A stretch of DNA of 64,000 nucleotides. Origin: Pelagicoccus sp. SDUM812005. Its GTDB lineage: Bacteria; Verrucomicrobiota; Verrucomicrobiia; Opitutales; Opitutaceae. This document shows positions 1,888-25,616 of the stretch, one piece after another. Position 1 is the first letter of the stretch; each line of letters opens with the position of its first letter. The notes beneath the pieces are model-generated. The model saw nothing but the letters and a program-made list of their open reading frames with translations, made no database searches and was not told where the DNA came from. Where the stretch lies: the NCBI RefSeq assembly GCF_031127875.1, contig NZ_JARXIA010000001.1:248001-312000 (forward strand). The letters are read 5' to 3'. Both the position numbers and the translations under genes were made by a program.

Positions 1888-1900
1888 GCTAATTGTAGGA
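1888..1900 (-). promoter_or_regulatory. Shared motif copy 1 (gene-direction TCCTACAATTAGC)
   Basis: The top strand reads GCTAATTGTAGGA, 84 bases upstream of the DUF4955 gene. It is the same 13-mer as at 8257–8269 and nearly the same as four other sites in front of hydrolase, LacI and TonB-receptor genes. It is either an operator or the -10 region (TACAAT) of a promoter class; I cannot tell which from sequence alone. Confidence 0.55.
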
Positions 1901-1954
1901 TAAGATAAGGGGGCTGGGATGAGGGGGGTGGGAGGATCGGGTTGTATTTTTTTT

Positions 1955-1987
1955 GGCCCGCAGATTTACGCGGATGTGCGCAGATTG
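1955..1987. repeat. GCAGATT-type intergenic repeat, copy 1
   Basis: A run of three GCAGAT/GCGGAT half-units spaced about 11 bases apart (CCGCAGATT, ACGCGGATG, GCGCAGATT). Near-identical copies lie at 2317–2348, 3814–3845 and 3938–3970. The repeat is preceded by a T tract and followed by a TTTGGGGATTGATGGGGAAG segment in three of the copies. Confidence 0.75.
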
Positions 1988-2316
1988 TTTTTTGGGGATT
2001 GATGGGGAAGTTTTTTGAGGAACCGCGTACGTTGATGATTTTTGACGGATCCTGTGAGGGTATCCTGCACTGCTGAGGAATTAACATCGCTTCGCTGGAT
2101 CCCTTCGCTGAACTCAGGGCGAAGACCCGATTCGAGAATTGATAGCTGGCTTAAGGTTGAATCTGCCTTCGCTATAGCGAAGGTCCTTCGTCGGTTTGGT
2201 TTTTGTGCCTTTTCGTGGCTATAGGATACTTCGGTTTGGACGGGGTGAGCATTGCTCCGATGAGCATGGAGGCTCTTGGGGGAAGAGTGGTGGATTGGGT
2301 TGTGTTTTTTTGGGGG

Positions 2317-2348
2317 GGCCGCAGATCTCCGCAGATGTGCTCAGATTG
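2317..2348. repeat. GCAGATT-type intergenic repeat, copy 2
   Basis: CCGCAGATCTCCGCAGATG followed by TGCTCAGATTGG; same arrangement of three units as copy 1, inside the left long direct repeat. Confidence 0.7.
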
Positions 2349-2435
2349 GTTTTGGGGGATTGATGGGGAAGTGGGGGGATTGAGAATTAGAGGATGGAGA
2401 GAGTGGTGAATTGGTAGGATCTTGCATTGCGGTCG

Positions 2436-2488
2436 CGGGCTTCCGCCTTCGCTGAAGCTACTGCGGACGGGGAAGCTCCGCGCTACGG
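2436..2488. repeat. Imperfect palindromic REP-like element, copy 1
   Basis: GGGCTTCCGCCTTCGCTGAAG followed within a few bases by GCGGACGGGGAAGCTCCGC. The core CTTCGCTGAAG is nearly self-complementary, and TGCGGA/CTCCGC can pair. Related elements lie at 4058–4110, 4113–4150, 31836–31892 and 39453–39503. Confidence 0.55.
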
Positions 2489-2512
2489 GGGATGCCTTCG
2501 TTATGGGGGGAT

Positions 2513-3700
2513 TTAGTTGGTTTGGCGCTGGGGGCTTTGCCAGGCGGGGCCGACTTCGGGGGGGCGGAGGTTGTGGTGGTCGGGTGGGGTGGCGAGTGTG
2601 GTGTTGTTTTGGATACGGTAGTCTTGGGGCAGGAGGGTACGGCCTCGCTCGTTGTAGCCGCCTTTTTCTTGGATGAGGGGAGCTTGGCAGTCGTAGAATT
2701 GGTTGCCTTGGACAAGAACGCGGTGGGCGGGGAAGTAGCCGTTGAGGGGGGAGTCGGGGATGCCTGCGTAGAGAACGATGATGCCGCCGGTGTAGCCGGT
2801 GAGGCTGTGGAAGGTGTTGTTTCGGATGGTGTGGCCGGAGTCGATGACGCGGACGCCGCCGGTATCCGGTTTATGGTTACCGATGAAGGTGTTGTTTTCA
2901 ACGAGGCTATCGGTGCCGTGGCGGAGGGTGAGGGTGCCGGCTGACTCGTAGAAGAGGTTGCCGCGGATGACGTTGTTGCAGGTTTTGCTGGAGATGATTT
3001 CGGTTTCGCCGTCGCAGCGTTCAAAGAGGTTGTTTTCGACGAGGCAGGAGCCGAGGCTGCGGGAGTCTTGGCTTTGGCCGATTTGGATGCACTCGTAGCC
3101 GTTGCCGTCGCCCTTGGGGCGGTCGAGGAAGTGGTTGTGGTCGATGCGGTGTTGGGCGTCGGGAGTTAGCATGCGAACCTGGACGGTGACGCCGCTGTGG
3201 GCTTGGTTGCGGAAGCGATTGTGGTCGACGCGGTTGTGGGTGCCGTAGAGGCGGACCCATGCGTAGCGGCGAGCGGGGTCGGAGGGGTTGCAGGAGTCGA
3301 AGACGCTGTGGCGCAGGCGGCTGTGGTGGGCGTAGTCGCTGTCGCTGGTGCGGAAGGAGACGAGGGCTTCGGTGTCGGCGGGAGGCTCGGCGTGGGAGAA
3401 GACGAGGTGGGAGAGAATGATGTGTTCTCCGGAGAGGGCGATGCGGGAGCGGCCGGTGATGCGGGTGTTGCCGTTGGTATCGCCGGTGAGGGTGATGGGG
3501 GCGTCGGCCGTGCCGTTGAGGGTGAGCTTGAGGTCTAGGTCGGCCCATTCGCCGGGGGCGAGCTGGATGGTGTCGCCGGGCTGGGCGGCTTGGAGATGGG
3601 ATTTGAGCTCTGGCAGATCGCGGGCGAGGCGGGTGGCGGAGAAGAGTGATACGTGCAGGGCGAAGAGTGAAAGGGGGGCGAGTAGGTGGATGCGTTTCAT
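2513..3700 (-). CDS. Polysaccharide lyase family 6 (alginate lyase / chondroitinase B-like)
   Basis: A 395-residue secreted protein with an N-terminal signal peptide (ending near SLFSA) and one right-handed beta-helix. The PL6 active-site pattern is complete. E203 (GYECIQIG), E232 and E234 (DGETEIISSK) match the calcium ligands; K239 and R260 (TLTLRHG) match the catalytic pair. The K-to-R spacing of 21 and the E-E-K spacing of 2 and 5 are what is known for chondroitinase B and the alginate lyase AlyGC. It would cleave an acidic polysaccharide by beta-elimination; alginate or a glycosaminoglycan cannot be distinguished here. The length fits a single-domain PL6 without the second beta-helix of AlyGC. 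The gene sits between two copies of a ~240-base direct repeat. A weak form of the shared motif (CCATTCGTAGAA) is at 3783–3794. Confidence 0.88.
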   Translation of the reverse strand: MKRIHLLAPLSLFALHVSLFSATRLARDLPELKSHLQAAQPGDTIQLAPGEWADLDLKLTLNGTADAPITLTGDTNGNTRITGRSRIALSGEHIILSHLVFSHAEPPADTEALVSFRTSDSDYAHHSRLRHSVFDSCNPSDPARRYAWVRLYGTHNRVDHNRFRNQAHSGVTVQVRMLTPDAQHRIDHNHFLDRPKGDGNGYECIQIGQSQDSRSLGSCLVENNLFERCDGETEIISSKTCNNVIRGNLFYESAGTLTLRHGTDSLVENNTFIGNHKPDTGGVRVIDSGHTIRNNTFHSLTGYTGGIIVLYAGIPDSPLNGYFPAHRVLVQGNQFYDCQAPLIQEKGGYNERGRTLLPQDYRIQNNTTLATPPDHHNLRPPEVGPAWQSPQRQTN

Positions 3701-3813
3701 GGGAGGGGTGGTTGGGTGATAGGTGGTGTGTTGTGGGTGGTGTGTTGTGGGTGGTGGGCTGTGGGTGGTGGGCTGTGACTGTTCTACGAATGGTACTTAT
3801 GAGGGATTGTTTT

Positions 3814-3845
3814 GCCCGCAGATTTTCGCAGATGGGCGCAGATTG
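3814..3845. repeat. GCAGATT-type intergenic repeat, copy 3
   Basis: GCCCGCAGATTTTCGCAGATG then GGCGCAGATTG. Lies just outside the right long direct repeat, 60 bases before the next copy begins its own flank. Confidence 0.7.
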
Positions 3846-3873
3846 TTTTTCTTAGGGGGGGATGCAGGGAGGG

Positions 3874-4110
3874 CATTGCTCTGATGAGCAAGGAGGCGTT
3901 TTGGGGGATGAGGGGTGGATTGGGTTGTGTTTTTTTTGGCCCGCAGATTTACGCGGATGTGCGCAGATTGGTTTTTGGGATTGATGGGGAAGTGGGGGGA
4001 TTTGAGAATTAGAGGATGGAGAGAGTGGTGAATTGGTAGGATCTTGCATTGCGGTCGCGGGCTTCCGCCTTCGCTGAAGCTTCTGCGGACGGGAAAGCTC
4101 CGCGCTACGG
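3874..4110. repeat. Long direct repeat, right copy (flanks PL6 gene)
   Basis: Same-orientation partner of 2250–2488; contains GCAGATT repeat copy 4 (3938–3970) and a REP-like element (4058–4110). With the left copy it frames a segment of about 1.6 kb that carries only the PL6 gene and its promoter. Confidence 0.8.
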
Positions 4111-4258
4111 GTTTGTCTTCGCCTAGGCTACTGCTGACTTGCCTGCGGGCTTGGATGTTTCGTGTTGCGGAGATGATTGGGGATGTGTGTGGGGGCTTGA
4201 ATGGGGAAAGGGGGCTGTTTTTTGCAGATGAAAGGGTGGTTTGTGCGTTCTTCGAACG

Positions 4259-5218
4259 ATGCACGTAGGAAAAAGGAGGAGTTGGCAGCTGTCGGAGTCG
4301 GAGGCGATCTCGGAGGGCGATTACTGGAACCGACGGAAATTTTTGAAGGCGGTGGGCTTGGGCACTGGCTCGTTGGCGGGGATTCCGAATTTGATCGGCG
4401 CCACGGCGGGGTTTCCTACGACGCGGAATCCGAAGTATTCGGGAGAGGGCTTGGATGTCACTGACTACGATCTGGTTTCTGGATACAACAACTTCTACGA
4501 GTTTTCTTATGACAAGGATGGTCCGGCGAAGCTTGCGAACAAGGGCTGGAAAACGGAACCTTGGACGTTGGAAGTCGGCGGCTTGGTGGACAACCCTTTG
4601 AAGCTGGATGTCAACGATCTGATCAAGCGAGTAGGGGGCATCGAGCAGCGGGTGTATCGTTTTCGATGCGTGGAGGCCTGGTCGATGGTGATTCCGTGGG
4701 ACGGCTTCCAGCTGAGCAAGCTCTTGCAGTTGGCGAGTCCGAAAAGCGGCGCGAAGTTCGTGAAGTTTACGACGTTCTTCGATCCGAAGGTGGCTCCCGG
4801 GCAGCGGGGCGGGTCGATCGATTGGCCTTATGTGGAGGCCCTCACTTTGGCGGAGGCAATGAACGAGCTGACCTTGCTCGCCACGGGGATCTTCGGAAAG
4901 CCGATGCCGAATCAAAACGGGGCCCCGATTCGTTTGGTGGTGCCATGGAAGTACGGTTTTAAGAGCATCAAGTCGATCGTACGTATCGACCTTGTCGATA
5001 CGAAGCCGGTCAATACGTGGCAGGCTTTGCAGCCGAGCGAGTATGGGTTTTACGCTAACGTGAATCCGAAGGTAGACCATCCGCGTTGGTCGCAGGGGAG
5101 CGAACGCGTGATTGGGGGCGGGTTTTTCAGCGGACGTAAGGACACGCTGATGTTCAATGGATACGAAGAGCAGGTAGCGGGGCTCTACGACGGCTTGGAC
5201 CTTCGCCGCAATTACTAG
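4259..5218 (+). CDS. msrP: Methionine sulfoxide reductase catalytic subunit (MsrP/YedY), Tat-exported
   Basis: A 319-residue molybdopterin oxidoreductase of the sulfite-oxidase fold that repairs oxidised methionines of periplasmic proteins. The twin-arginine signal NRRKFLKAVG is at residues 24–33, and the invariant molybdenum-ligand cysteine is C137 in RFRCVEAWSM. WKYGFKSIKSI and the C-terminal GLYDGLDLRRNY are also family landmarks. I use the ATG at 4259 because it gives the normal short leader before the Tat motif; a TTG at 4241 would add six residues. No clear ribosome site precedes either. It is followed five bases after its stop by msrQ, the usual operon. Confidence 0.93.
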   Translation: MHVGKRRSWQLSESEAISEGDYWNRRKFLKAVGLGTGSLAGIPNLIGATAGFPTTRNPKYSGEGLDVTDYDLVSGYNNFYEFSYDKDGPAKLANKGWKTEPWTLEVGGLVDNPLKLDVNDLIKRVGGIEQRVYRFRCVEAWSMVIPWDGFQLSKLLQLASPKSGAKFVKFTTFFDPKVAPGQRGGSIDWPYVEALTLAEAMNELTLLATGIFGKPMPNQNGAPIRLVVPWKYGFKSIKSIVRIDLVDTKPVNTWQALQPSEYGFYANVNPKVDHPRWSQGSERVIGGGFFSGRKDTLMFNGYEEQVAGLYDGLDLRRNY

Positions 5219-5223
5219 TTGGA

Positions 5224-5841
5224 ATGTCGCGGATTTCTGGCTTTTGGCGCAGTCCGTGGCTGCTTTATGCGGCCTTGTGCAGCCCGTTGGTACTGGCGGG
5301 CGCTGCGGTGCTGCGGCAGGAGATTGGCTACTTGGCGGATCCCGCGAAGTACTTGCTGGAATTTCTTGGCAAGGCGGCGGTGGTGCTGCTGGTGGTCACC
5401 TTATGCATTACTCCGGTGCGCCAGCTGTTTCCGAAGTGGGAACTGTCGAAGGCGTTGGTTTTTCGGCGGCGTCAGATCGGGGTGAGCGTATTCGTTTACG
5501 CGCTACTGCACTTCGCGCTCTATCTGCCGTACGTGGGCGGGTGGCAGGGGGTTGTCGAGGAGTGGAGCAAGCTGTTTATTTTGTCGGGTTTGCTCGCGCT
5601 TGCGTTGCTGTTGGTCTTGGCGGGGACGAGCAACAACTTCTCTGTTAAGCGAATGGGGGGCAAGCGTTGGAAGCGGTTGCACAAGTTGACTTACTTGGTG
5701 GTCGCTCTGGTGATCTACCACCAGTTCGCTCAAGAGAAAACGGGTTATCGGGAGACGTTGTTGTATTTCTGGCCCTTGTTTTTGCTGGAGGGCATTCGTT
5801 TGTTCCGTTGGGCGAAAGCGGGCGTGACGCGGCCCGCTTGA
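5224..5841 (+). CDS. msrQ: Heme b membrane subunit MsrQ of the sulfoxide reductase
   Basis: A 205-residue integral membrane protein of the ferric-reductase-like family with about six hydrophobic helices. Candidate heme ligands are the histidines in LLHFALYLPY, KRLHKLTYLV and VIYHQFAQE. It passes electrons from quinol (or flavin, as known for E. coli) to MsrP. The gene starts five bases after msrP ends, so the two are surely one operon. It ends 18 bases before the end of the convergent GH3 gene, with no strong terminator hairpin between. Confidence 0.92.
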   Translation: MSRISGFWRSPWLLYAALCSPLVLAGAAVLRQEIGYLADPAKYLLEFLGKAAVVLLVVTLCITPVRQLFPKWELSKALVFRRRQIGVSVFVYALLHFALYLPYVGGWQGVVEEWSKLFILSGLLALALLLVLAGTSNNFSVKRMGGKRWKRLHKLTYLVVALVIYHQFAQEKTGYRETLLYFWPLFLLEGIRLFRWAKAGVTRPA

Positions 5842-5858
5842 GGCCGAAGGGGGCGGGG

Positions 5859-8087
5859 CTAGACGACTTGGAAGCGTTGTTCCAGGAAGGTCTCGGAGGA
5901 GCTGCCGACTTGGACTACGAAATCGCCGTTTTCGACTTTCCGTACGTTGTCGGCCCCGGTGCAGGCTAGCATCTCGGGAGCGATCGCGAAGCTGATGGTC
6001 TGGCTTTCGCCGGGTTCGAGATAGATTTTGCGGAAGGCTTTCAGCTCTTTGGCAGGGCGGACTACGGTGCCGATGGGATCCTGGATATAGAGTTGGACGA
6101 CTTCCTTGCCGGGGCGGTCTCCTGTATTGGAGATCTTGATACTGGCCGAAAGGGAGTCGCCGTTTGCCACTTGTTTTGCGGAGAGCTGGAGGTCTTGGTA
6201 GTGGAAGGTGGTGTAGCTGAGCCCGAAGCCGAAGGGGTAGAGGGGCCCGTTTTCCATGAACATGTAGCCTTTCTTGAAGTTGATCTTCTTTTGGCTGTAG
6301 TGGAAGGGGAGCTGGCCGATGGTGCGGGGCACGGTGACGGGGAGCTTGCCGGAGGGGACGGAGTGGCCGAAGAGGGTCATGGCGATGGCTGTGTCGCCCT
6401 GCTCGCCGGGATCCCAGGCGTCGAGGATGGCGTCGGCTTCGGCTGCCAGTTCGTTGATGGCGAGGGTGCGGCGGTGCTTGAGGGCGACGATGACGGGTTT
6501 TCCGAGGGCTTTGAGGCGACGGAAGAGCTCGACTTGGGAGCCGAGCAGGTCGATGGAGGCGCGGTCGCCGATGGCGAAGTCGAAGAAGGCTTCCTTGGCG
6601 GTAAACTCGTCGCCGCCCACGAAGAGAACGGTGGCGTCCGCGGAGGCGGCGGCTTGCACGGCTTTTTCGAGGCCGGGGGCGCACTGTTCGGGGGTGAGCA
6701 GGTCGGGGTAGTTGATGTCGCCGTTGGTGAGGGAGAAGCCTTTTTCGGCTACGAACGCTATGGAGTCGCCGGCGACCTCTTGGAATTGGGCTAGGGTGTT
6801 GGGTTTGAGGAGGGGGCCGACGAGGGCGATTTTGGGCGTGGCGCGGGGATCGAGCGGGAGGGTCTTGTTTTCGTTCTTGAGCAGGATGAGGGAGTCGAGC
6901 TCGGACTCGAGGGCGAGCTGGAGGGCGCTGGGGCTGCGGCTGATGGCGCGGGCTTGTTCTTCGGAAGCGTAGGGATTTTCGAAGAGGCCGAGAATGAACT
7001 TGGCTCGCAGGACGTTGCCGGCGGCCTGGTCGATGAGGGGGATGAGGGACGTGTCTTTGGCGGCGAGTTGGGGGAGGCGGACGTAGCAGTCTTCGTTGTA
7101 GAGGTCTACGTTCATGCCGGCCTTGAGTCCGAGCAGGGCGGCTTCGTCCTCGTTTTCGGCGACGGCCATGAAGTAGAAGAGGCGTCCGATATCGTTGGCG
7201 TCGGAGACGGTGTATCCATTAAATCCCCACTGGTCGCGGAGAATGTCGGTAAGGAGCTGTTTGTTGGCGTGGCAGGCGACGCCGTTGAGGTCGCCGTGTG
7301 AGGCCATGATGCCGAGGGTCTTGGCCCGTTGGACGGCGGCTTGGAAAGGGGGGAGGATTTGGTCGGCGAGGTCTCGCTCGGAGATTTGCACGGAGGCGAA
7401 GTTGCGTCCGCCTTCCACTTGTCCGTAGCCGGCGAAGTGCTTGGTGACGGCCCCGATGTGGGTGGAGGCGAGGCCGTGGTAGTCGCCTTGCACGCCGGTG
7501 ACGGCGGCGACGACCATCTCGGAGACGAGGTGGGTGTCTTCGCCGAAGGTTTCGCTCATGCGGCCGAAGCGGGGGTCGCGGATGAGGTCGGCCTCGGGCG
7601 AGTGGCACATGTGCATGCCGCGAGCGCGGGCCTCGCGACCGACTTGGTCCCAGACGCGGCGCACGAGTTCGGGGTTCCAGCTGGCGGCCATGTTGATGGG
7701 GCGGCTGAAGTCGGTGGTACCGGCGGCGTCGACCCCGTTGTAGGATTCGGTGACGAAGAGGGCGGGAATTCCGTGGCGGCTGTTTTCGACGAGGTACTTT
7801 TGTAGGAGGTTGTTGATGCGGGCGGCGTCCTGGGGGGAGTCGTGTTCGCCCGGGTTCTTGATCCCGGCGATGCCGTGCTTGACCTGTTCCTTGAAGTGGT
7901 CGCTGAGGACGAGCTGTCCGTCTTCGTCGAGGCTGACGCCGAGGTTGGCGTGCACGATGCGCATCTGGGCGACCTTTTCCTCGAGGCTCATGCGGGAGAG
8001 GAGGTCGCGCACCTTGGATTCGATGCGGTCGGCGCTGGCGGGACCGAGTGGCGATTTGCGGGAACGTTCTGTGGCTTCTGTGTGCAT
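5859..8087 (-). CDS. Glycoside hydrolase family 3 (beta-glucosidase/xylosidase type)
   Basis: 742 residues with the three-part GH3 architecture: N-terminal barrel (about 25–370), GH3_C domain (about 390–610) and a C-terminal fibronectin-like domain (about 650–735). The nucleophile is D296 in GYTVSDANDI, and the substrate-binding KHFAGYG (K216, H217) is present. The acid/base candidate lies in the GH3_C part (VGGDEFTAKEAFF). No signal peptide is evident, so it may be cytoplasmic or exported by another route. The specificity (glucose or xylose) cannot be read off. It is divergent from the LacI gene at 8382 and shares the spacer that holds motif copy 2. Confidence 0.92.
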   Translation of the reverse strand: MHTEATERSRKSPLGPASADRIESKVRDLLSRMSLEEKVAQMRIVHANLGVSLDEDGQLVLSDHFKEQVKHGIAGIKNPGEHDSPQDAARINNLLQKYLVENSRHGIPALFVTESYNGVDAAGTTDFSRPINMAASWNPELVRRVWDQVGREARARGMHMCHSPEADLIRDPRFGRMSETFGEDTHLVSEMVVAAVTGVQGDYHGLASTHIGAVTKHFAGYGQVEGGRNFASVQISERDLADQILPPFQAAVQRAKTLGIMASHGDLNGVACHANKQLLTDILRDQWGFNGYTVSDANDIGRLFYFMAVAENEDEAALLGLKAGMNVDLYNEDCYVRLPQLAAKDTSLIPLIDQAAGNVLRAKFILGLFENPYASEEQARAISRSPSALQLALESELDSLILLKNENKTLPLDPRATPKIALVGPLLKPNTLAQFQEVAGDSIAFVAEKGFSLTNGDINYPDLLTPEQCAPGLEKAVQAAASADATVLFVGGDEFTAKEAFFDFAIGDRASIDLLGSQVELFRRLKALGKPVIVALKHRRTLAINELAAEADAILDAWDPGEQGDTAIAMTLFGHSVPSGKLPVTVPRTIGQLPFHYSQKKINFKKGYMFMENGPLYPFGFGLSYTTFHYQDLQLSAKQVANGDSLSASIKISNTGDRPGKEVVQLYIQDPIGTVVRPAKELKAFRKIYLEPGESQTISFAIAPEMLACTGADNVRKVENGDFVVQVGSSSETFLEQRFQVV

Positions 8088-8256
8088 AGGAGAGTAGGGA
8101 GGAGAGCCTGCGGCCTTGCGGGTCGGGGAGGAGCAGGGGGTAGGAGAATCTTGCGGAATGGAGGAGCCGACAAAGCAGGCCCGGGACTAACAGTAGGATT
8201 GCCCGGCGCTGGCAGGCGCGGGAGCTGGCTGGGGTAGGCTGGAGCCGCGAAGGAAA

Positions 8257-8269
8257 GCTAATTGTAGGA
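8257..8269 (-). promoter_or_regulatory. Shared motif copy 2 (gene-direction TCCTACAATTAGC)
   Basis: GCTAATTGTAGGA on the top strand, identical to copy 1, in the 294-base spacer between the divergent GH3 (start 8087) and LacI (start 8382) genes. This is a classic place for an operator that controls both directions. Confidence 0.6.
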
Positions 8270-8381
8270 TTTGCGCTATGGGTCTTGCGGAGGGGGGACG
8301 GCCTTGCGTAGTTTTGGGGTATCGGTCCTGAACCCAGGCCGTGGCCCGGCCGCAATTGGCGGGGCGGATAGGATGCCCCTT

Positions 8382-9461
8382 ATGAACTCCAAGAACAGCA
8401 AAGCGACGCTCGGGAAGAGACGCGTAACGATCCGCGATATCGCGGAAGAGGTGGGCCTGCATTTCACCACAGTGGCGAGGGCCTTGAAGGATTCGGATTT
8501 GGTCAAGCGGGAGACGGCGCAGCGGGTGAAGGCGGCAGCGGAGCGCCTCGGCTACCAGGCGGATCCGTTCGTGTCGGCGTTTTGCAGCTATCGCAGCAGC
8601 CACTTGAAGCAGGGTTACCGCGGGAACCTGAGTTGGATAAACGGGTTTCATTCGCCCGACTACTTCGAGTCCGAGGCGACGGGCTACTACAAGGAGTGCT
8701 ACGAGGGGGCGAAGGAGCGTTGCCGGGAGCTCGGGTTCAAGCTGGTGCCGTTTTGGTACGGGGAGCCGGGCATGTCGGCCAAGCGGGCCTCGCAGATCAT
8801 CCATAGCCGTGGGGAGGCCGGTTTGATCGTGGCCCCGATGCCTCCGAGTATCGATAAGTTGGATATGCGCTGGGATTCGTTTTGCTCGGTGCGGATTGGG
8901 TACTCGATACCGGACGTTCCTTTGACGAATGTGGTTTCGGATCACTTCGGCAACATGAAGCTGCTTTGCTCCCAGCTGGAGTCGCTCGGTTTTTCGAGGA
9001 TTGGCTTTGCGTGCAAGGAGTGGATCGACAAGCGGGTGGAGCACAAGTGGTCGGGAGCGTTCCAGCTGCGGCGCTACAGCGCCGAGCGCGAGCGTTACCT
9101 GCCGATGTTTTTGAGCGAGAACGAGGACGATTTCCATGCGTTCGAATCGTGGATACGGCTGAATCGGCCGGAGGTTTTGATTATCGGCGGGGTGACCTCC
9201 TATCCCGAGTTTCTCGAGCGCATGCGTATGCGGGTGCCGGAGGATATCCAGCTTGTATCCGTTTCCTTGGAACACGACCATGCGGGCTTTTACGCTGGCA
9301 TCGACCAGGAGGCGAAGGTGGTCGGCGCGGTGGCGGTGGATCAGCTCGCTGGCATCGTGCGGCGTTCCCACGTGGGGTTGGAGAGCGCTCCGAAGACGAT
9401 TATGACTAGCGGGTTTTGGAGAGGCGGAAGGAGCTGCGATCCAGCTTTGCTTGCCAAATGA
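8382..9461 (+). CDS. LacI-family transcriptional regulator (paralogue of the one at 24254–25360)
   Basis: 359 residues. The helix-turn-helix is VTIRDIAEEVGLHFTTVARA, which departs from the common 'VSxxTVSRVLN' by having HFTTVARALKDS. The periplasmic-binding-protein-like effector domain runs from about residue 70. It shares long blocks with the second LacI protein, such as GEPGMSAKRAS, FCSVRIGYSIP, DHFGNMK and RIGFAC, so the two are paralogues. An ATG at 8373 is three codons upstream; I prefer 8382 because AGGA lies at a workable distance. Divergent from the GH3 gene and just upstream of the rhamnosidase, so it likely controls this block. Confidence 0.88.
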   Translation: MNSKNSKATLGKRRVTIRDIAEEVGLHFTTVARALKDSDLVKRETAQRVKAAAERLGYQADPFVSAFCSYRSSHLKQGYRGNLSWINGFHSPDYFESEATGYYKECYEGAKERCRELGFKLVPFWYGEPGMSAKRASQIIHSRGEAGLIVAPMPPSIDKLDMRWDSFCSVRIGYSIPDVPLTNVVSDHFGNMKLLCSQLESLGFSRIGFACKEWIDKRVEHKWSGAFQLRRYSAERERYLPMFLSENEDDFHAFESWIRLNRPEVLIIGGVTSYPEFLERMRMRVPEDIQLVSVSLEHDHAGFYAGIDQEAKVVGAVAVDQLAGIVRRSHVGLESAPKTIMTSGFWRGGRSCDPALLAK

Positions 9462-9480
9462 TGCCGATCTTGTTCTTTGC

Positions 9481-9493
9481 TCCTACAATGATG
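9481..9493 (+). promoter_or_regulatory. Shared motif copy 3 (TCCTACAATGATG)
   Basis: Reads TCCTACAATGATG towards the rhamnosidase gene, 94 bases before its ATG at 9588. Matches copies 1 and 2 at 10 of 13 positions. Confidence 0.5.
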
Positions 9494-9587
9494 GAAAGGC
9501 GGAACGTTGAAGTCGTTTCGTCCTGAATCTTTCCTTTTGAACCTTCCAGCGGCCTGTTTTGGCGGGCTCTGGGCTCTCTACTCGAAA

Positions 9588-11750: not shown

Positions 11751-11911
11751 GCCGGGCCGGGTGGGATCTGACTGTTTGGCGAATCTTTTGTAGCAATGCG
11801 TCCCAGCGGCGCGTTTAATACAGTTAGAATTGCTTGTTCAGTGATTGTTTTTCAAGAAGCTGTCACCTTTCCCTTTCGATCCCTAACCCCAAAAAGCCTC
11901 TGGCCTTGCCT

Positions 11912-13312: not shown

Positions 13313-13346
13313 AATTCTGACGTTCTAACCTTAATCGCATTCGAAA

Positions 13347-13529
13347 ATGATTACTGTATTTAAAATCCTAGGACGTATCGGTCTTTTGCTTACCATTCTT
13401 CCCGCGGTCCTTTTCTATTTGGACACCATCGAGCTCGATAGCGTCAAGCTCTACATGACGATCGGCATGGTCGCTTGGTTCGTCGGCTCGATTATGGCCA
13501 GTCGCGTGCTGCCAGCGGTCGAGGACTGA
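13347..13529 (+). CDS. Small two-helix membrane protein between two transporters
   Basis: 60 residues with an amphipathic start, helix one (GLLLTILPAVLFYL), a short acidic hinge (DTIELDSVK) and helix two (MTIGMVAWFVGSIMA). I do not recognise a named family. It sits 34 bases after the NCS1 gene and about 100 bases before the SSS symporter. Small membrane partners encoded just before SSS-family symporters are a known theme (YjcH with ActP, YhdT with PanF), so it may be a transporter companion. Codon use and the lack of any competing frame support a real gene. Confidence 0.7.
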   Translation: MITVFKILGRIGLLLTILPAVLFYLDTIELDSVKLYMTIGMVAWFVGSIMASRVLPAVED

Positions 13530-13555
13530 CTTTAGCCCGCATTTCATTCTCTCCG

Positions 13556-13579
13556 GACGGGCAGCAAGGTTTGCCCGTC
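13556..13579 (+). terminator. Hairpin after the small membrane protein gene
   Basis: GACGGGCA pairs with TGCCCGTC across an 8-base loop, followed by TCGCTTTCC, a poor T tract. It could be a weak terminator or attenuate read-through into the symporter gene. Confidence 0.4.
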
Positions 13580-13632
13580 TCGCTTTCCTAGCTCCGTGCC
13601 GAGCTGGTTTCGCTCTCGCTTGTTCTCCCCCC

Positions 13633-15267: not shown

Positions 15268-15335
15268 AAGCCGAAAAGCGGCTGCGGGCTTGGGTAGCTT
15301 CGCTGTTTTCGGCGGCCTGCCTCTCCAGGTAGAGC

Positions 15336-16637: not shown

Positions 16638-16690
16638 GCTTGCTCGGAACGATGGGATCAGTTGGCCGGAGGGGCGAGCTTCGCGATCGG

Positions 16691-16703
16691 CATAATTGTA
16701 GGA
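16691..16703 (-). promoter_or_regulatory. Shared motif copy 4 (gene-direction TCCTACAATTATG)
   Basis: The top strand reads CATAATTGTAGGA, 54 bases upstream of the GH43-like gene; 11 of 13 positions match copies 1 and 2. Confidence 0.5.
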
Positions 16704-16830
16704 GGTCGCTGCTTCGTCATTCGCACATGCCTTTGCGGTTTCCTGCATGGCTACTACTGTTATGAAAATGGTATGCTAGGGCCTGTCTCGTTTTTGTCTA
16801 TAACGGTGCCTGCCCCAACCCCGCTTTCAA

Positions 16831-18951: not shown

Positions 18952-18957
18952 GCGCTT

Positions 18958-20358
18958 ATGAAACAAGGGGGAGAAAGAGGAATGGATATGGGATTTCAAC
19001 GGGATGTCGCCTTGGGGAGGCGTCGCTTCCTCAAGGGAGTGGGGGCTTGCGTGGCGCTGCCGTTGTTGGAGTCATTGATGCCGCGGAGCTTAGTGGCGAA
19101 GACGGCCGCGCAGGGCTTGGCCCAGACGGCGACGGGCGCGCCTTTGCGGCTCGGTTTCGTCTATTTCCCGAACGGAGCGATTCCTGCAAAGTGGTGGCCG
19201 ACTGGAGACGAGCGGCGTTTCGAACTAAACGATACGATGAAGCCCTTGGAGCGCTTTCGCGATCGTATCCAAATTCTGGGAGGATTGGATCATGCCAACG
19301 CCAATCCAGGCGACGACGGAGGCGGGGATCACGCTCGGGCCAACGGGGTTTTTCTTACTGGGGTGCGTATCAATAAGAGCCCTACGGACATCCGGGCTGG
19401 GATCTCTATCGATCAGGAGGTGGCTCGGCGAGTCGGGAGCTTGACGCGTTATCCGTCGCTGGAGTTGACTTGCGATCGTTCTCGTCCGAGCGGGCTGTGC
19501 GATTCCGGCTACTCCTGCGCTTACCAGTACAATGTTTCCTGGAAGTCCGCTACGGTGCCTATGGCTCCGGAATCGAATCCTCGCAAGGCCTTCGAGAGGT
19601 TGTTCGGAGAAGGGCCGCACGGGGAACGTAGCTTCAACGCAAAGCAGCGAATGATGAATCGGCGTTCGGTATTGGACTGCTTGCTGGGGGATGTGGCGGA
19701 CTTGCAGCCGCGGCTCGGGGTCAGAGACCGCGAAAAGCTGGACCAGTATTTAACGGGACTGCGAGAGGTTGAGCAACGTATCGAAAAAATGGAACGGCAC
19801 GGCATGGCGCCTGACCCCGATGTGGAATCTCCCTCGGGCATTCCCAGCGCCCATAGCTCGCACATCGACATGATGTACGATGTGTTGGCCTTGGCGTTCC
19901 AGACGGATTCGACGCGGGTTGCTACGATGATGATGGCTCACGACGGAGATAATCGTTCCCATGAGGAGATCGGAATCAACGAAGGGCACCATAACCTGTC
20001 GCATCACTTGTTGGATAAGGAAAAGATCGAAAAGGTGGCCCGTATCGATCGCTGGTACGTGGAGCGCTACGCTTCGTTTCTAGAGAAGTTAGACAGTATC
20101 CAAGATGTGGATGGGAATAGCTTGCTGCACAATACGATGATCGTCTACGGCAGCGGCAATGCGGACGGAAATCACCATAGCCACGACAATTTGCCGATCG
20201 TGCTTTCCGGAGGGCAAGGCGCAGGGGTAGAGGGTAACCGCTATGCTAACTACGGGGCGCAGCCGACCACGAACCTGTTTCTCAGCCTCGCGGACAAGCT
20301 GGGGGTAGATGATTTGCCGCGCTTTGGCGATTCGACAGGGCGTTTGCGGGGGATCTGA
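18958..20358 (+). CDS. DUF1552 family protein, Tat-exported
   Basis: 466 residues. A twin-arginine signal (GRRRFLKGVGACVALPLLES) is at about 20–40, then the DUF1552 body with GFVYFPNGAIPAKWWPTG, the GGLDHANANPGDDGGGDHAR histidine/aspartate cluster and YGSGNADGNHHSHDNLPIVL. The body resembles the alkaline-phosphatase/sulfatase-like fold of the related DUF1501 proteins, so a metal site is plausible. It almost always pairs with DUF1592 proteins, as here. The biochemical role is not established. Confidence 0.88.
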   Translation: MKQGGERGMDMGFQRDVALGRRRFLKGVGACVALPLLESLMPRSLVAKTAAQGLAQTATGAPLRLGFVYFPNGAIPAKWWPTGDERRFELNDTMKPLERFRDRIQILGGLDHANANPGDDGGGDHARANGVFLTGVRINKSPTDIRAGISIDQEVARRVGSLTRYPSLELTCDRSRPSGLCDSGYSCAYQYNVSWKSATVPMAPESNPRKAFERLFGEGPHGERSFNAKQRMMNRRSVLDCLLGDVADLQPRLGVRDREKLDQYLTGLREVEQRIEKMERHGMAPDPDVESPSGIPSAHSSHIDMMYDVLALAFQTDSTRVATMMMAHDGDNRSHEEIGINEGHHNLSHHLLDKEKIEKVARIDRWYVERYASFLEKLDSIQDVDGNSLLHNTMIVYGSGNADGNHHSHDNLPIVLSGGQGAGVEGNRYANYGAQPTTNLFLSLADKLGVDDLPRFGDSTGRLRGI

Positions 20359-20550
20359 GCGCGGGGGAAGGTTCAGCGGGTGAAGGCTTTTGCGGGGGGG
20401 CATGGGTGGGGTTCTATTTTTTTGATGGGGACGTTGCGGCGGGCCCGGCGGTCCCGCCCTACCTGGGGTTATGAGGTATTAGGGAAGCGGATACGAAAAA
20501 GGAGCAAGCGGGGGGCTTGCTCCTTTGTTTAAGTGGGTGGCCTTAGCGTT
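20359..20550. other. Convergent spacer with inverted repeat
   Basis: Between the DUF1552 and TonB-receptor stop codons. Holds an inverted repeat GGCGGG…CCCGCC at 20438–20458 (GGCGGGCCCGGCGGTCCCGC), which resembles a short interspersed palindromic element, and the terminator described separately. Confidence 0.5.
20497..20527 (-). terminator. Rho-independent terminator of the 20.5-kb TonB receptor (also works forward)
   Basis: AAAGGAGCAAGC and GCTTGCTCCTTT form a perfect 12-base-pair stem around a GGGGG loop. Read on the minus strand it ends in TTTTT. It lies 24 bases beyond the receptor stop codon and faces both convergent genes. Confidence 0.85.
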
Positions 20551-23500
20551 TTAGAACTGGAGGCTGTTGGTGAGGGACCAGGTTCGGGGCGCTTTCTGGG
20601 ACCATTGCACGACTTCGCCGGTGTAGGAATCGATGCTGATGGGGATGTAGGCGCGGTCGTCGAAGAGGTTCTTGACGTTGAGCTGGAGTCGCCAATCGAC
20701 ATTGCGTTGGCCGATCTTGAGCTTGCGGCGGTAGGTGAGCCAGCCGTCGATATCGAGGATGCTGTCGCCGTTGATGGGCTTGCTTGCATCCGGAACGCGG
20801 ATACCGCTTGGGTTCTCCGGATTTTCCTTGCCGAGGTAGCCGATGGCGGCGGCGGAGCGCCAGCGAGCTCCGGTGCCGACGCTGAAGCCTTTGAGGCGGC
20901 CTTCGTTGAACTTGTAGCGGGAGATGAAGTTGACGCGCCATTTGCGGGTGCGGGGAGTGGCGATGCCTTGCTCTTCGGTTGCGAGGGCGACGCGGGCGTA
21001 TCCATTTCCGTGATTCAGGAGGCTGTAGCCGAGCGAATCGCTGCGGTTGACGGCCCATGCGTCGCGTGGGGTGGTGGGGCTCCAGTCCGGGTTGTCGTTG
21101 GAGGGATCGGAGAAGGGGTGCGGGGCGCCTTCTTCGCGTTCACCGTAGTAGTCGCTGTCGAGGGGGCTGCGTGGGAGGTTCATGTACTTTTCGTAGATGT
21201 CCTTGCGGCGTTCGAAGAACTCGAGGAAGCCTGGCAGGGTCTTCTCGTTGACGGCTTTGGCTTTGCCGACGGTGAGGCGCATGTCCCAGTTGGTGGTGGG
21301 GCGGGCGAAGATTTCCATTTCCATGCCTTCGGAGCGGTAGTCGCGGGTGACGCGGAGGAATTCGCTGAACTCGGTGGACTCCGGCTGGTAGTCGTCGATG
21401 GAGAGGCCGAGCGTATTTTCCGCCCAGGCGCGGCGGGCGCTGACGTCGATGAGCGTGCCGTCTTCTTCGACGAGGGGATCGACGCCTAGCTCGCCGGGAG
21501 CGAGGGCTTCCCACCAGTCTTCGATCATGCGTTCGGTGGTGCCGACGATGGTGTTTTTGACTCGCAGGTAGTTCCAGTCGTTTTCGAGGTCACCGGTGGC
21601 GGACTGTTCGAACCAGTTGACGCGGGCGGAGAGCTTGCCCTCCATGAGGTTGAGCATGAAGCCGAACTCTTCGCCTTGGCCGTCGGAGGCGGGGAGGGGA
21701 TTGTTGTCGAAGTCGTGGTACTGGCCTTGCGGATCGAAGCTGCTGGACTTGCTGTAGAGGAGCGAGAGCCATTCGTTGGCATGGTAGACGACGCCGATGG
21801 TTTCGGTGTCTCCGTCCTGGGTGACGAGCGGGGTGGAGGCGATGGGCTCGAGCAGGATCTCGAGGGTGTCGGGGTCGCGGTTCACTTCGGCGTAAGGAAG
21901 GTCTTGGGAGCGGTAGAGGGTTTCCCGGTCGTTGCGAAAGCCGAAGGTGGTGACGAGCTTGTCGTTGAGGAAGCGGCTTTGCAGCACGGCCATTTGTCCG
22001 GTGAGCTCGCGGATATTGGCGGATGGGATGCCGTCGGAGCGGAAGCCGCCGACCTCGAAGGTGTCGGCTACGTGGTACTTGGGCGGATAGTTAATGCTGT
22101 TGGGACCGGAGGCGGGGTCGCCGGGTAGGTCGAGGTAGTAGCGGTTGGAGACGTTGTTGCGTGTTTCCTGAATGGATACAGGATTGTCGCCTCCGCGGCC
22201 GTACTTGAAGTCGAGGTCGTAGTGGGCGCGGAGCTTGCGTTGGAACTGGTAGATTTCGTCCTCCTGGTAGAGGAAGGCGATGTCGTGGCGTCCGAAGAGC
22301 TGGTTGCGTTCGCGCAGGTCGAGGCTGTAGGAGGCGGTGAAGCGCAGGTTGTCCTGCTCGATGTCTTCGTCGAAGCCGATGAGGTGTCCTTCCACGTAGT
22401 AGCGGCCGACGTTGGGATTTTTGATGTAGACGTATTCACCATCTGGATTCCGGAGGGTGTCGCGGTGGTCGTAGGAGCCGTCGGAGCGGCGACGGTTTTC
22501 GACGACTTCGGATCCGAAGGCGTAGGTGGGGTCGCCGTCTTCGTCCTTGAGGGTGCGGTTGAGCTGCCAGACGGCGAGGTAGTAGTTGGGGTCGGCCTTG
22601 AGCTGGGACGAGTTGACGCGTAGCGGATCGACGAAGTAGCGGTCCCATTCCTCGTGGTTGAAGGCGGCTTCGATGAAGAAGTTTTCGTTGATTTTCTGCT
22701 CCCAGACGAAGGAGTAGTTTTCTCCTTGGTACTCGGTGCTGGAGGCGAAGCCGTGGATGTTGAAGCTCGGGTCGACGAGGGTGTCGCCGGGGCCGAAGGT
22801 TTCGGTGTCGGCGTTGCGGTCGAAGTTTCCGACGGAGGAGGCTTGTCCGCGGTTGATGAGCCACTGGGTGCCTTGGGAGGCGTACCATTGGCGGGTGGCG
22901 GGATCTTCGATGGCGTTCCAGGCGGCGGGGTCGAGCTCGATTTGTCCGTGCAGGTAGGCCTTGGCGCTGCCGTTGTAGAAGCCTCCGTTGTCGCGGTCGA
23001 TTCCGAGCTGGTGCTGTTCGTCTTCTGAGAGGGCCCAGAGTTTCTTGGCCTGGCCGTCGAAGGTGGCTTCGTCGGTCCAGGTGTTGCCGTTGTCGTAGGA
23101 GATGCGGTCGTTGATGTGGTCGTAGACGGGGCGTCCGGCTTCGATCCAGGCGGAGACTTCGTCGCGCACGAGCTGGCTGCGGGCCTTGGAGCGGTCGTTG
23201 CGCATGGCTTCGTAGTTGGCCCGGAGGGCGGTGCCCTCGAAGGGACGGTAGGTGATGGCTCCGTAGCGGCGGCGCTCGTGGTCGCGCTCGGGGTCCTTCC
23301 AGGTTTCGATGTCCTGGTCGAGGCTGGCGAAGCGGACGGCGAGCTTGTTCTCGAAGAGGACCTTGTTGATGTCGGTGGTGAGGCGGCGTCCGTTTTCGGA
23401 GTCGAAGCGGAGGGAGAGTCCGAGCTTGTCCTGGCCTACCATGGCTCGCTTGAGGGAGGTGTTCATCAGGCCGGCCGGGGAGCCGACTCCGTAGAGGATG

Positions 23501-23970
23501 GAGTTGGGGCCGCGCGACACGGTGAAGCGCTCGGAGTTGTAGGTGTCGCCGCGGAACTTGCTGGCGAAGAAGCCGCGGGTCTCGCTGGTGGCCATGAGGC
23601 CGCGCACGCGGCTTTGGTTGGTGGTGGAGACGGAGGCTCCTTCGGAATCGTCGGGAGCGTACTCGTTTTCGTTTTCGACGTTTACGGAGTAGAGGTAGGC
23701 TTCCTGGATATTGGTGGCGTCGATGTCCTTGAGGAACTCGGCGGTGAAGACGGATATGGGCGAGGCTACGTCGTTGAGGCTGGAGTTGAGGCGGGTGCCG
23801 GAGAGGGTGTTAGTGGCACGGTAGCTGTTGTTGTCGTTGGCTTCCACGACGAAGGGGGAGATCTCGAAGACGTCCCCTTCCGGCTGGTCCGCGGTCTGGG
23901 CCCCGAGGGGAGCGGCGATGAGGAAGGCAGCGGTGCAGAGCGATGCGGCGCTTGTTCTTTGGTGGGTCAT
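20551..23970 (-). CDS. TonB-dependent outer-membrane receptor
   Basis: 1139 residues, within the normal range for verrucomicrobial receptors. It has a signal peptide (ending near PLGAQ), a TonB-box-like stretch (DVFEISPFVVEANDNNSYRA) and a plug domain (about 60–230; GTRLNSSLNDVASPISVFTA, VSRGPNSILYGVGSPAGLMN). A 22-strand barrel ends in the C-terminal phenylalanine (SLTNSLQF) typical of outer-membrane proteins. It imports an oligosaccharide or other large nutrient; no SusD partner is nearby. Upstream (24188–24205) lies an 18-base palindrome, and the LacI gene is transcribed towards it from 25360. Confidence 0.93.
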   Translation of the reverse strand: MTHQRTSAASLCTAAFLIAAPLGAQTADQPEGDVFEISPFVVEANDNNSYRATNTLSGTRLNSSLNDVASPISVFTAEFLKDIDATNIQEAYLYSVNVENENEYAPDDSEGASVSTTNQSRVRGLMATSETRGFFASKFRGDTYNSERFTVSRGPNSILYGVGSPAGLMNTSLKRAMVGQDKLGLSLRFDSENGRRLTTDINKVLFENKLAVRFASLDQDIETWKDPERDHERRRYGAITYRPFEGTALRANYEAMRNDRSKARSQLVRDEVSAWIEAGRPVYDHINDRISYDNGNTWTDEATFDGQAKKLWALSEDEQHQLGIDRDNGGFYNGSAKAYLHGQIELDPAAWNAIEDPATRQWYASQGTQWLINRGQASSVGNFDRNADTETFGPGDTLVDPSFNIHGFASSTEYQGENYSFVWEQKINENFFIEAAFNHEEWDRYFVDPLRVNSSQLKADPNYYLAVWQLNRTLKDEDGDPTYAFGSEVVENRRRSDGSYDHRDTLRNPDGEYVYIKNPNVGRYYVEGHLIGFDEDIEQDNLRFTASYSLDLRERNQLFGRHDIAFLYQEDEIYQFQRKLRAHYDLDFKYGRGGDNPVSIQETRNNVSNRYYLDLPGDPASGPNSINYPPKYHVADTFEVGGFRSDGIPSANIRELTGQMAVLQSRFLNDKLVTTFGFRNDRETLYRSQDLPYAEVNRDPDTLEILLEPIASTPLVTQDGDTETIGVVYHANEWLSLLYSKSSSFDPQGQYHDFDNNPLPASDGQGEEFGFMLNLMEGKLSARVNWFEQSATGDLENDWNYLRVKNTIVGTTERMIEDWWEALAPGELGVDPLVEEDGTLIDVSARRAWAENTLGLSIDDYQPESTEFSEFLRVTRDYRSEGMEMEIFARPTTNWDMRLTVGKAKAVNEKTLPGFLEFFERRKDIYEKYMNLPRSPLDSDYYGEREEGAPHPFSDPSNDNPDWSPTTPRDAWAVNRSDSLGYSLLNHGNGYARVALATEEQGIATPRTRKWRVNFISRYKFNEGRLKGFSVGTGARWRSAAAIGYLGKENPENPSGIRVPDASKPINGDSILDIDGWLTYRRKLKIGQRNVDWRLQLNVKNLFDDRAYIPISIDSYTGEVVQWSQKAPRTWSLTNSLQF

Positions 23971-24187
23971 AGTTTGACTGGTGGGGGTTGGGGGTTGTTG
24001 ACTGCCTGCGTTGGAGCATGGCGGTCCCTTGGTGGAGGGGCCGTGGGCGTGGCGTCAGGCGGTTGGGGTAGGCGAGCTGGGAGGGACAGCAGGCGCGACC
24101 TCAGCCGAGGCTTGAGGGGTCGCGCTGGCGCTCGCCGGTTGATGCCACGAATACAGCAGGAGCGGCTGGACGTAACCACCCAACAAC

Positions 24188-24205
24188 TTTCATACCTGTA
24201 TGAAA
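24188..24205. promoter_or_regulatory. 18-base palindrome, candidate operator of the TonB receptor
   Basis: TTTCATACCTGTATGAAA has perfect 8-base arms around CT. It lies 218 bases upstream of the receptor start and 49 bases after the end of the LacI gene. Its size and symmetry fit a dimeric regulator's binding site. It is too short and lacks a T tract for a good terminator, though a hairpin is possible. Confidence 0.5.
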
Positions 24206-24253
24206 AGGGAGCAGGGCTGGGGCTGCGGGGGTGCGGTGGGAGGCCGGAATGGG

Positions 24254-25360
24254 CTAGGCCGAAGCGGGAATGGCGGGCAGGGGCGGCTGGGCTCTTCCGT
24301 TGTAGGATTCTCCATCCTGCCATTCGCCGCTTACCAGTACGGTTTTAGGATGGGTTTCGATGCCTGCCTTGTAGCGGTGGATGGAGCCGACCAGGTGGTC
24401 GATGGAGACTTTGCCTACGGTGACGCCGCTTTGGGAGATTCCGGATAGGCCTTTTGCCAGCCCATCGGTGTGGATGGATACGAGTTGGACCTCTGCGGGC
24501 ACGGCGATGCCTGCCTCGTTGAGGAAATTGTAGTAGTTCCGCGCCCCGCCGGAGATGATGACTTCGGGGCGGTTCTGGTGGTACCAGTCCGTGAAGGCTT
24601 GGGGAGAGCCGTGCATTTCGGGGTCGAGGAAGGCGGGGACGCGGTTGGCTTCCTCTTCTCGGCTTTGCATGGCGAAGAAGGAGCCGGACCAGTGGCGGTT
24701 GACGCGGTCGTCGAGGTCGGCGGGACAGGCGAAGCCGATGCGACGGAAGCCATGGGAGCGCAGGCGCTCGTAGACCATTCTCATATTGGAGAAGTGGTCG
24801 GTGACGATCGTAGTTAAATTCGTATTACGAATGGAGTAGCCGATCCGCACGGAGCAAAATTTGTCCCATACGAGATTCAGTTCGTCCAGGCCGTGGGGCA
24901 TGGGGCCGACGATGACACCGGCGACGTTTCTGCTTTCGAGGATATTGGAGGCACGGCCGGCGGTCATGCCCGGCTCGCTCATCCAGAAAGGTTCGATGCG
25001 GTAGCCGAGGTCTTCGCTTCGGAGGCAGGCGCCTCGGTAGCAGTCCCCGTAGAAGCCGGTGCGGTTGGAAAAGTAGTGCCGGTCGTCGAAGCAGTTGATC
25101 CAGGCGAGGGTGCCTTGGTAAACGGGTTGTCGTTTCGAGGAACGGTAGGCGGAGAGGGCGGACAGCATGGGGTCGACCCGGTAGCCGAGCTTCTTGGCGG
25201 CAGCGGCCACGCGTTCCCTAGTTTCGGCCTTCACGCGGGGAGAGTCGCGCAGGGCTTCCGCCACGGTGGTGAAGTGCAAGCCGACTTCTTTGGCGATGTC
25301 GCGCACGGTGGGCCGGCGTTTGGCGGGAGGCAAGGGATGGCTTTTGTGGGGTAGGGACAT
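24254..25360 (-). CDS. LacI-family transcriptional regulator (second paralogue)
   Basis: 368 residues. The helix-turn-helix is PTVRDIAKEVGLHFTTVAEA, with the same unusual HFTTV recognition helix as the regulator at 8382. The effector domain shares SEPGMTAGRASNIL, FCSVRIGYSIR, DHFSNMRM and RIGFACPADLDDRV. The close similarity of recognition helices suggests overlapping operators. It sits between two TonB receptors, upstream of one and divergent from the other. Motif copies 5 (25441) and 6 (25604) lie in the divergent spacer. Confidence 0.9.
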   Translation of the reverse strand: MSLPHKSHPLPPAKRRPTVRDIAKEVGLHFTTVAEALRDSPRVKAETRERVAAAAKKLGYRVDPMLSALSAYRSSKRQPVYQGTLAWINCFDDRHYFSNRTGFYGDCYRGACLRSEDLGYRIEPFWMSEPGMTAGRASNILESRNVAGVIVGPMPHGLDELNLVWDKFCSVRIGYSIRNTNLTTIVTDHFSNMRMVYERLRSHGFRRIGFACPADLDDRVNRHWSGSFFAMQSREEEANRVPAFLDPEMHGSPQAFTDWYHQNRPEVIISGGARNYYNFLNEAGIAVPAEVQLVSIHTDGLAKGLSGISQSGVTVGKVSIDHLVGSIHRYKAGIETHPKTVLVSGEWQDGESYNGRAQPPLPAIPASA

Positions 25361-25440
25361 CGCGGGGTGGGGGTGGAGTTTGCAGGGGTGCCTTCTCCAA
25401 GGTAGGCGAGGAAACCGCTAAAAGGCGGCGCGGCGTTTAT

Positions 25441-25453
25441 GCTAATTGTAGTA
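25441..25453 (-). promoter_or_regulatory. Shared motif copy 5 (gene-direction TACTACAATTAGC)
   Basis: GCTAATTGTAGTA on the top strand, 81 bases upstream of the second LacI gene; 12 of 13 positions match copies 1 and 2. Confidence 0.55.
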
Positions 25454-25603
25454 GGGGAAGCGGAGTCGCCGCGGAGGGCCTCGGCTTGTTCGTCCGTTGC
25501 AGCTTTGTGGGGAAGGCGGGCAGGGTGGGGGCGAGGAGCGGGTGGGGGGTTGGTGGTAAGGGCTGGGGGAGATTGGTAGATTTGCATCTCTGTTTGTACT
25601 AAA

Positions 25604-25616
25604 TAATACAATTAGC
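25604..25616 (+). promoter_or_regulatory. Shared motif copy 6 (TAATACAATTAGC)
   Basis: Reads TAATACAATTAGC towards the TonB receptor at 25839, in the same gene-relative orientation as the other copies; 11 of 13 match. Confidence 0.5.

Follow-up and report, generated by a model that had tools for sequence, protein, structure and literature searches.

Local regulons of the LacI/GalR family, and a code linking recognition-helix residues to operator bases, have been described by Camas, Alm and Poyatos (2010, PMC2978694, of which part was consulted). In the systems covered there, the operator lies before the regulator's own gene and its neighbors, helix residues are tied to dyad positions 4 to 6, and Arg is tied to G at position 6. 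Does the same logic apply to a polysaccharide degradation locus of Pelagicoccus sp. SDUM812005? In a stretch of 64,000 nucleotides from this organism (contig NZ_JARXIA010000001.1, positions 248,001 to 312,000; "the window"), a 13-base motif recurs before genes for hydrolases, TonB receptors, and two LacI-type proteins, LacI-1 and LacI-2. As in the published systems, the motif stands before the regulators' own genes and their neighbors. The published set, as far as the consulted part goes, consists of TVSR proteins with mostly palindromic, CG-centered sites, whereas here the helices read HFTTVAR or HFTTVAE and the sites have a CTA core, a CWRT center, and unequal outer bases. Sequence comparison indicates that the motif is very probably the operator of a regulon run by the HFTTV LacI clade (LacI-1, LacI-2, and a third protein, LacI-3, encoded elsewhere in the genome).

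Two other described systems, each consulted in part, come close. In a simulation of a duplicated lac repressor-operator pair, heterodimers fit non-palindromic operators (PMC1464816); the likeness lies in the paralogous LacI proteins and in that fit, but there it is a passing stage in a computation, whereas here a lopsided operator is kept across species. AraQ and MalR1 of bifidobacteria (PMC6882875) are likewise two LacI-type proteins on the same carbohydrate pathway, although in another phylum and with other genes. In the open-licence literature, at the level of titles and the starts of abstracts, we found no account of this regulon or of a natural LacI heterodimer.

We compared the organism's own genome (G000; 6.65 Mb, 118 contigs) with 252 genomes of its family, 372 genomes of its order, and, for one pattern count, 57 relatives. 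The motif patterns (TCCTACWRTTAG, TMMTACWRTTAK, and TACNNTTA) were built after the sites had been seen, and the gene maps around the sites are mechanical predictions. In three relatives (G007, G003, and G019), the motif stands before the GH3 orthologues, each time in two copies; GH43, TonB receptor, symporter, sulfatase, 492-residue, and orf587 genes also have it upstream in part of these genomes. The upstream regions of orthologous LacI genes, a comparison proposed in a first-pass annotation of the window, revealed a GH3/LacI-1 site identical at 13 of 13 bases in four genomes while its flanks had diverged. Upstream alignments of GH3 (four genomes), symporter (three), and TonB receptor (two) genes likewise showed a motif block kept amid diverged flanks. 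The symporter site travels with its gene on different contigs (C24 in G000, C167 in G003, and C11 in G019). The regulon would comprise TonB receptors, sodium symporters, glycoside hydrolases, sulfatases, a DUF4955 lyase-like gene, and the regulators' own genes.

Scanning both strands of the window for the 13-mer with up to two mismatches gave six matches (100 shuffles: mean 0.70, maximum 3). Those at 1888 and 8257 on the minus strand are exact, 25441 (minus) has one mismatch, and 16691 (minus), 25604 (plus), and 10078 (minus) have two each; the last was left out as lying inside the GH78 gene. The first-pass annotation had claimed six sites, of which those at 1888, 8257, 16691, 25441, and 25604 held, with the exact 13-mer at 1888 and 8257 only. 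Its GH78 site at 9481 has three mismatches (TCCTACAATGATG) and lacks the TACNNTTA core, and the weak copy it placed near 3783, before the PL6 gene, had no match within three mismatches there. Sites at 8186 (minus), 11816 (plus), and 16752 (plus) and a palindrome at 24188-24205 were absent from its list. The regulators and their predicted sites in the window are as follows.

1888..1900, minus strand: predicted operator TCCTACAATTAGC before the DUF4955/BT3328-like gene, exact match; a reversed copy stands before the G007 DUF4955 gene.
8186..8198, minus strand: predicted operator B, TCCTACTGTTAGT, before GH3; TCCTAC.GTTAG in four genomes, 63-71 bp from operator A.
8257..8269, minus strand: predicted operator A, TCCTACAATTAGC, between GH3 and LacI-1; the exact, fully conserved site described above.
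8271..9461, plus strand: LacI-1 frame (HFTTVAR, Arg22); the true start is probably an ATG near 8374-8383.
11816..11828, plus strand: predicted operator TAATACAGTTAGA before the 492-residue frame; its orthologous counterpart in G007 is TCATACAGTTAGA (L094 9790, minus).
16691..16703, minus strand: predicted operator TCCTACAATTATG before the GH43-like gene (ATG probably 16637); a site also precedes GH43 in G007 and G003.
16752..16764, plus strand: operator-like TACTACTGTTATG pointing to the PSD gene; a match to a widened pattern.
24188..24205: perfect palindrome TTTCATACCTGTATGAAA before the second TonB receptor gene (20551-23970, minus strand); presumed Glu/Glu homodimer operator.
24254..25360, minus strand: LacI-2 (HFTTVAE, Glu22), with Pfam LacI and Peripla_BP_3 matches.
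25441..25453, minus strand: predicted operator TACTACAATTAGC before LacI-2, one mismatch.
25604..25616, plus strand: predicted operator TAATACAATTAGC before the TonB receptor gene (25839-29159, plus strand); the G007 orthologue carries TACTACAATTAGC.

Genome-wide, the best matches and their clustering carry the signal. Matches to TMMTACWRTTAK numbered 16 in G000 against 6 for the reversed pattern, 15 against 9 in G003, and 13 against 2 in G007. By our own count, 12 of the 16 in G000 fall in three regulon clusters (the window cluster, C53, and C24); one of the other four was inspected, C31:141405, and lies inside a long frame. The pattern TCCTACWRTTAG gave 20 matches versus 7 for its reversed control in the four genomes with LacI-1 and 15 versus 61 in the other 53 of the 57 relatives (own sums). 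The TACNNTTA core occurred 32 times in 30 regulon intergenic regions (9271 bp) compared to 3.5 expected, a density about nine times the expectation (maximum of 200 shuffles, 10; six decoy cores, 0-2 each), in regions that were picked with sites already known and with one of the 32 cores probably there by chance. Upstream of 25 other LacI genes of G000 (9500 bp), this core was found three times.

The distribution of the candidate regulators matches that of the sites. LacI-1 and LacI-2 scored 36.9 and 39.5 bits against PF00356 (cutoff, 27); against PF13377 (Peripla_BP_3; cutoff, 26.5), LacI-2 scored 30.2 bits and LacI-1 21.9, below the cutoff. LacI-2 also matches the solved structures of LacI, PurR, and CcpA. 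The translations and the Pfam matches thus confirm two HFTTV paralogues in the region, as first annotated, and G000, with 31 matches to LacI-2 (itself included), holds a third. This is LacI-3 at C53, 56% identical to LacI-2, with one motif copy before its own gene and one before the divergent sulfatase. HFTTV itself is less unusual than had been thought, its DNA pattern being present in 49 of the 252 family genomes. The LacI-1/LacI-2 clade is confined to 4 of the 252, the same four that have clustered sites. LacI-1-type and Glu-type proteins are both present in each of these, and LacI-1 was found only alongside Glu-type proteins (4/4). In the order as a whole (372 genomes), one further genome, G412 (93% complete), encodes just one Glu-type protein; LacI-1 was not found in it at E 1e-65. 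A LacI tree of 21 of 22 sequences (the G143 sequence was left out) supported the whole clade and the LacI-1 group at 100/100 and the Glu group at 86/88. The operator precedes the regulator's own gene for LacI-1, LacI-2, LacI-3, and relatives; no site was found within 350 bp of the E-type LacI gene at G007:C31 or before the G412 LacI gene.

Do related half-sites accompany LacI genes beyond the clade? The pattern CTANNNNTAG lies within 350 bp upstream of 19 of 66 Thr18 LacI genes outside the clade (3.0 expected from shuffles) versus 1 of 24 LacI genes without Thr18 (1.4 expected; Fisher P = 0.019), and upstream of 5 of 10 of the clade's own. Under a shuffle control of the upstream rows of HFTTV LacI genes, it was present in 12 of 56 outside the clade versus ∼2.5 expected. 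Over all 66 HFTTV rows, which include at least two loci twice and one non-LacI frame, eight decoys gave 0-3 and one gave 9. Several CTANNNNTAG sites are near-perfect palindromes, e.g., GTTCTACCTGTAGGAAC. This association outside the window ties CTA half-sites to Thr18, and hence the motif to LacI proteins. The data suggest a code step for many LacI proteins of this group, namely, Thr18 with CTA half-sites. The common operator that the first-pass annotation had offered as one of two explanations is thus well supported by conservation at orthologous promoters, by the presence of the clade in the four site-clustered genomes, and by the Thr18 LacI genes carrying CTANNNNTAG.

Several results weigh against this reading. 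A genome-wide search found the 13-mer with up to two mismatches at 60 places in G000 against 79 for the reversed pattern, so weak matches alone mean nothing, and in G019 TMMTACWRTTAK gave 10 matches against 10 in the control. The lack of a genome-wide excess would be expected if the motif were a short sequence shared by chance or simply by descent. That explanation is nevertheless almost certainly wrong, because the motif is kept while its flanks diverged, the core density is far above expectation, and sites occur with the same genes on different contigs. The pattern CTANNNNTAG is not special to HFTTV, since HFTT genes do not differ from other LacI genes in carrying it (6/22 versus 11/43); the HVTT and HPTT proteins also have it. 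What sets HFTT apart is CTACNNGTAG alone (4/22 versus 0/43 of the others; P = 0.011). The dyad center is CWRT at 32 of 33 or more sites and lacks the usual CG step, which is the center rule of the LacI/GalR family with rare exceptions named (PMC2978694, consulted part). Finally, an operator alone gives no explanation for the orientation of the sites toward the gene.

This orientation had raised a second explanation, in which the motif serves as the −10 element (TACAAT) shared by a class of promoters that may depend on an activator. Most sites do face the gene in one orientation, 53-222 bp before the starts, and in the hexamer the T, A, and final T never vary. However, the hexamer varies to TACTGT and TACAGT, conservation spans both of its flanks, the site before the G007 DUF4955 gene has the opposite orientation, and the CTA dyad recurs before LacI genes of other genera. 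A TTGACA-like −35 was not found 15-19 bp upstream, with a mean of 3.31 mismatches over 32 sites versus 3.24 in shuffles, in agreement with the lack of a conserved −35 noted at first pass. A −10 element is therefore very unlikely, and overlap of a predicted operator with a −10 box is disfavored as the cause of the orientation because the −35 is missing.

How fixed is the orientation? Because any site between divergent genes points to some gene, only same-direction gene pairs are informative. There, the sites point toward the gene in six gene groups (DUF4955 in G000, 492-residue, GH43 in G003, symporter in G412, and sulfatase and orf587 in G007) and away from it in one (DUF4955 in G007). The fixed orientation described earlier is thus real elsewhere but reversed at the G007 DUF4955 gene, and it is only partly explained. 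One further site, L100 13698 (minus), is directed away from the Glu-type LacI gene closest to it. A TTTG block that follows the proximal GH3 and symporter sites at 12 bp resembled a −35 with an upstream activator site, but we do not rely on it: over all groups, TTG at this place scores 3.75 of 17, a value matched by several other trinucleotides, and the block is absent from the G412 symporter site. DNA looping between the two GH3 sites was also rejected, as these lie 63-71 bp apart in four genomes with no fixed helical phase.

Another regulator could bind the sites, for example, the PAS-AraC protein whose gene neighbors the symporter sites of G000:C24. Members of the AraC family recognize sites that are asymmetric and oriented, and the gene is adjacent in G000 and G002. 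Its distribution speaks against it as the binder: G007 and G019 have the sites but no homologue above 50% identity (best, 33%), and close homologues occur in genomes without site clusters. We consider binding by such a regulator highly improbable. A third, weaker copy, TCCTACTGTTGG (L143 8503), lies in the symporter/PAS-AraC intergenic region of G000:C24; a match at L098 1751 was left out, being inside a symporter frame. In G002, a genome without HFTTV LacI genes by pattern, TCCTACAATTAGGA directly follows the PAS-AraC gene (L152 8138, C71), by chance or for another binder.

Returning to the operator, its anatomy is that of an imperfect LacI-type dyad, approximately AATCCTACW-RTTAGCA (hyphen at the center), whose half-sites share the CTA core. 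Across 33 sites in 17 gene groups, the dyad lies between columns 7 and 8, and positions 3-5 are equal in both halves (A, T, C). Position 6 is C in the left half and mostly G in the right, and position 2 is C in the left and A in the right. For the 32 cores, whose flanks were unused in core picking, position 6 was C 25, A 6, and G 1 in the left half and G 16, A 7, C 6, and T 3 in the right (left C 25, G 1 versus right G 16, C 6: Fisher P = 4.6e−7). The position 2 asymmetry is also present at single-LacI sites of G020 and G143 and thus lends no support to a heterodimer.

Could the two halves be read by two different proteins? Glu35 of LacI-2 aligns with residue 22 of the lac repressor (structure-match alignment; offset counted by hand). 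Residue 22 is Arg in LacI-1 in four of four genomes and Glu in seven of seven paralogues. The consulted part of PMC2978694 links this residue to operator position 6 and pairs Arg with G; by that code, the right half fits LacI-1. These features suggest, tentatively, a heterodimer of LacI-1 (Arg22) and a Glu22 paralogue on the asymmetric sites. In such a pair, LacI-2 or LacI-3, as the Glu22 protein, would contact the left half and LacI-1 the right; LacI-1 would work only together with Glu22 paralogues, and palindromes such as 24188 would be bound by Glu-type homodimers. A C/C palindrome does stand beside a Glu-type LacI gene in two genomes: TTTCATACCTGTATGAAA by LacI-2 in G000 and TCATACTTGTATGA in G007, the latter before a related TonB receptor gene (38% over 287 residues). 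The C of the left half agrees with these Glu-side palindromes. Each of the two is the sole TCMTACNNGTAKGA match of its own genome, and G003, G019, and G412 have none. The G412 symporter site, TTATACAATTAGGA, has C on the right half. A symmetric Arg/Arg operator, GCTAANNTTAGC, was rejected, with 2-6 copies in the four LacI-1 genomes, 0-6 in six others, and more control matches than true ones in all ten; the copy that precedes an MCP gene in G007:C8 probably arose by chance.

Three observations count against a heterodimer: a single TCMTACNNGTAKGA match also occurs in three of the five same-genus genomes that lack the clade; Met22 gives no clean rule (HPTTISM with T at position 6, HFTTVSM of G020 with C); and right-half G occurs at only 16 of 32 sites. 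Alternatively, LacI-1 and the Glu-type proteins may each bind the same asymmetric operator as homodimers only, with one half tolerated as weaker and promoter overlap keeping the orientation. This is the simplest reading for the LacI family, the right half is less conserved than the left, and an asymmetric center is likewise seen with two presumably homodimeric LacI proteins, one from G020 and one from G143. Against homodimers stand the systematic difference between halves at position 6 in a clade having two residue 22 types, the existence of a Glu-type palindrome without enrichment of an Arg-type one, and the constant company of LacI-1 and Glu-type proteins. We regard homodimers as plausible, at a little under an even chance.

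LacI proteins are mostly repressors. Those of this clade probably repress as well and would be released by a polysaccharide fragment, with activation as the alternative. The analysis yields a predicted LacI regulon and operator for a polysaccharide degrader of the Pelagicoccus group, in which TonB receptors, symporters, sulfatases, and hydrolases encoded on several contigs are assigned to named regulators. A heterodimer, if true, would be a lasting natural case of the stage that was transient in the LacI duplication simulation (PMC1464816, consulted part). Two effector domains on one operator could then make the polysaccharide response depend on two sugars, a form of signal integration.

Other LacI genes of the group have sites of their own. 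TCTAACNNTAGA-like sites precede the HVTT and HPTT LacI genes (L034, L070, L072-L076, L080, L082, and L085), ∼80-155 bp ahead of the helix codons and in some cases as a pair spaced by 22-25 bp. They form a second class of operator in this group. HFTTVGL and HFTTVAL proteins (L186, L191, L199, L207, L232, and L234) have TTCTACNNGTAGAA-like palindromes before their own gene. Within the window, another LacI-type frame at 46548-47591 has the common TVSR helix (SRWTVSRILNG) and belongs to a separate gene group, with no motif copy within three mismatches nearby.

By Pfam, the first 30 kb of the window encodes GH3, GH78, GH43-like, and PL6-like (Chondroitinas_B) enzymes, a sodium symporter, PSD and HXXSHH proteins, two TonB receptors, and the two LacI proteins. 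The gene at 1-1804 (DUF4955/BT3328-like) gave no Pfam match in the given frame and, against the BT3328 hyaluronan lyase model, 193 of 1100 bits, under the cutoff; it resembles the DUF4955 protein of G007, as judged by eye only. Between the PL6 and DUF4955-like genes (1950-2470) lie two similar stretches, one GCAGATTTACGCGGATGTGCGCAGATTG-type and one GCAGATCTCCGCAGATGTGCTCAGATTGG-type, each followed by GGGGATTGATGGGGAAG, in a repeat-like arrangement. The same intergenic stretch contains a perfect palindrome, CCTTCGCTATAGCGAAGG, at 2166.

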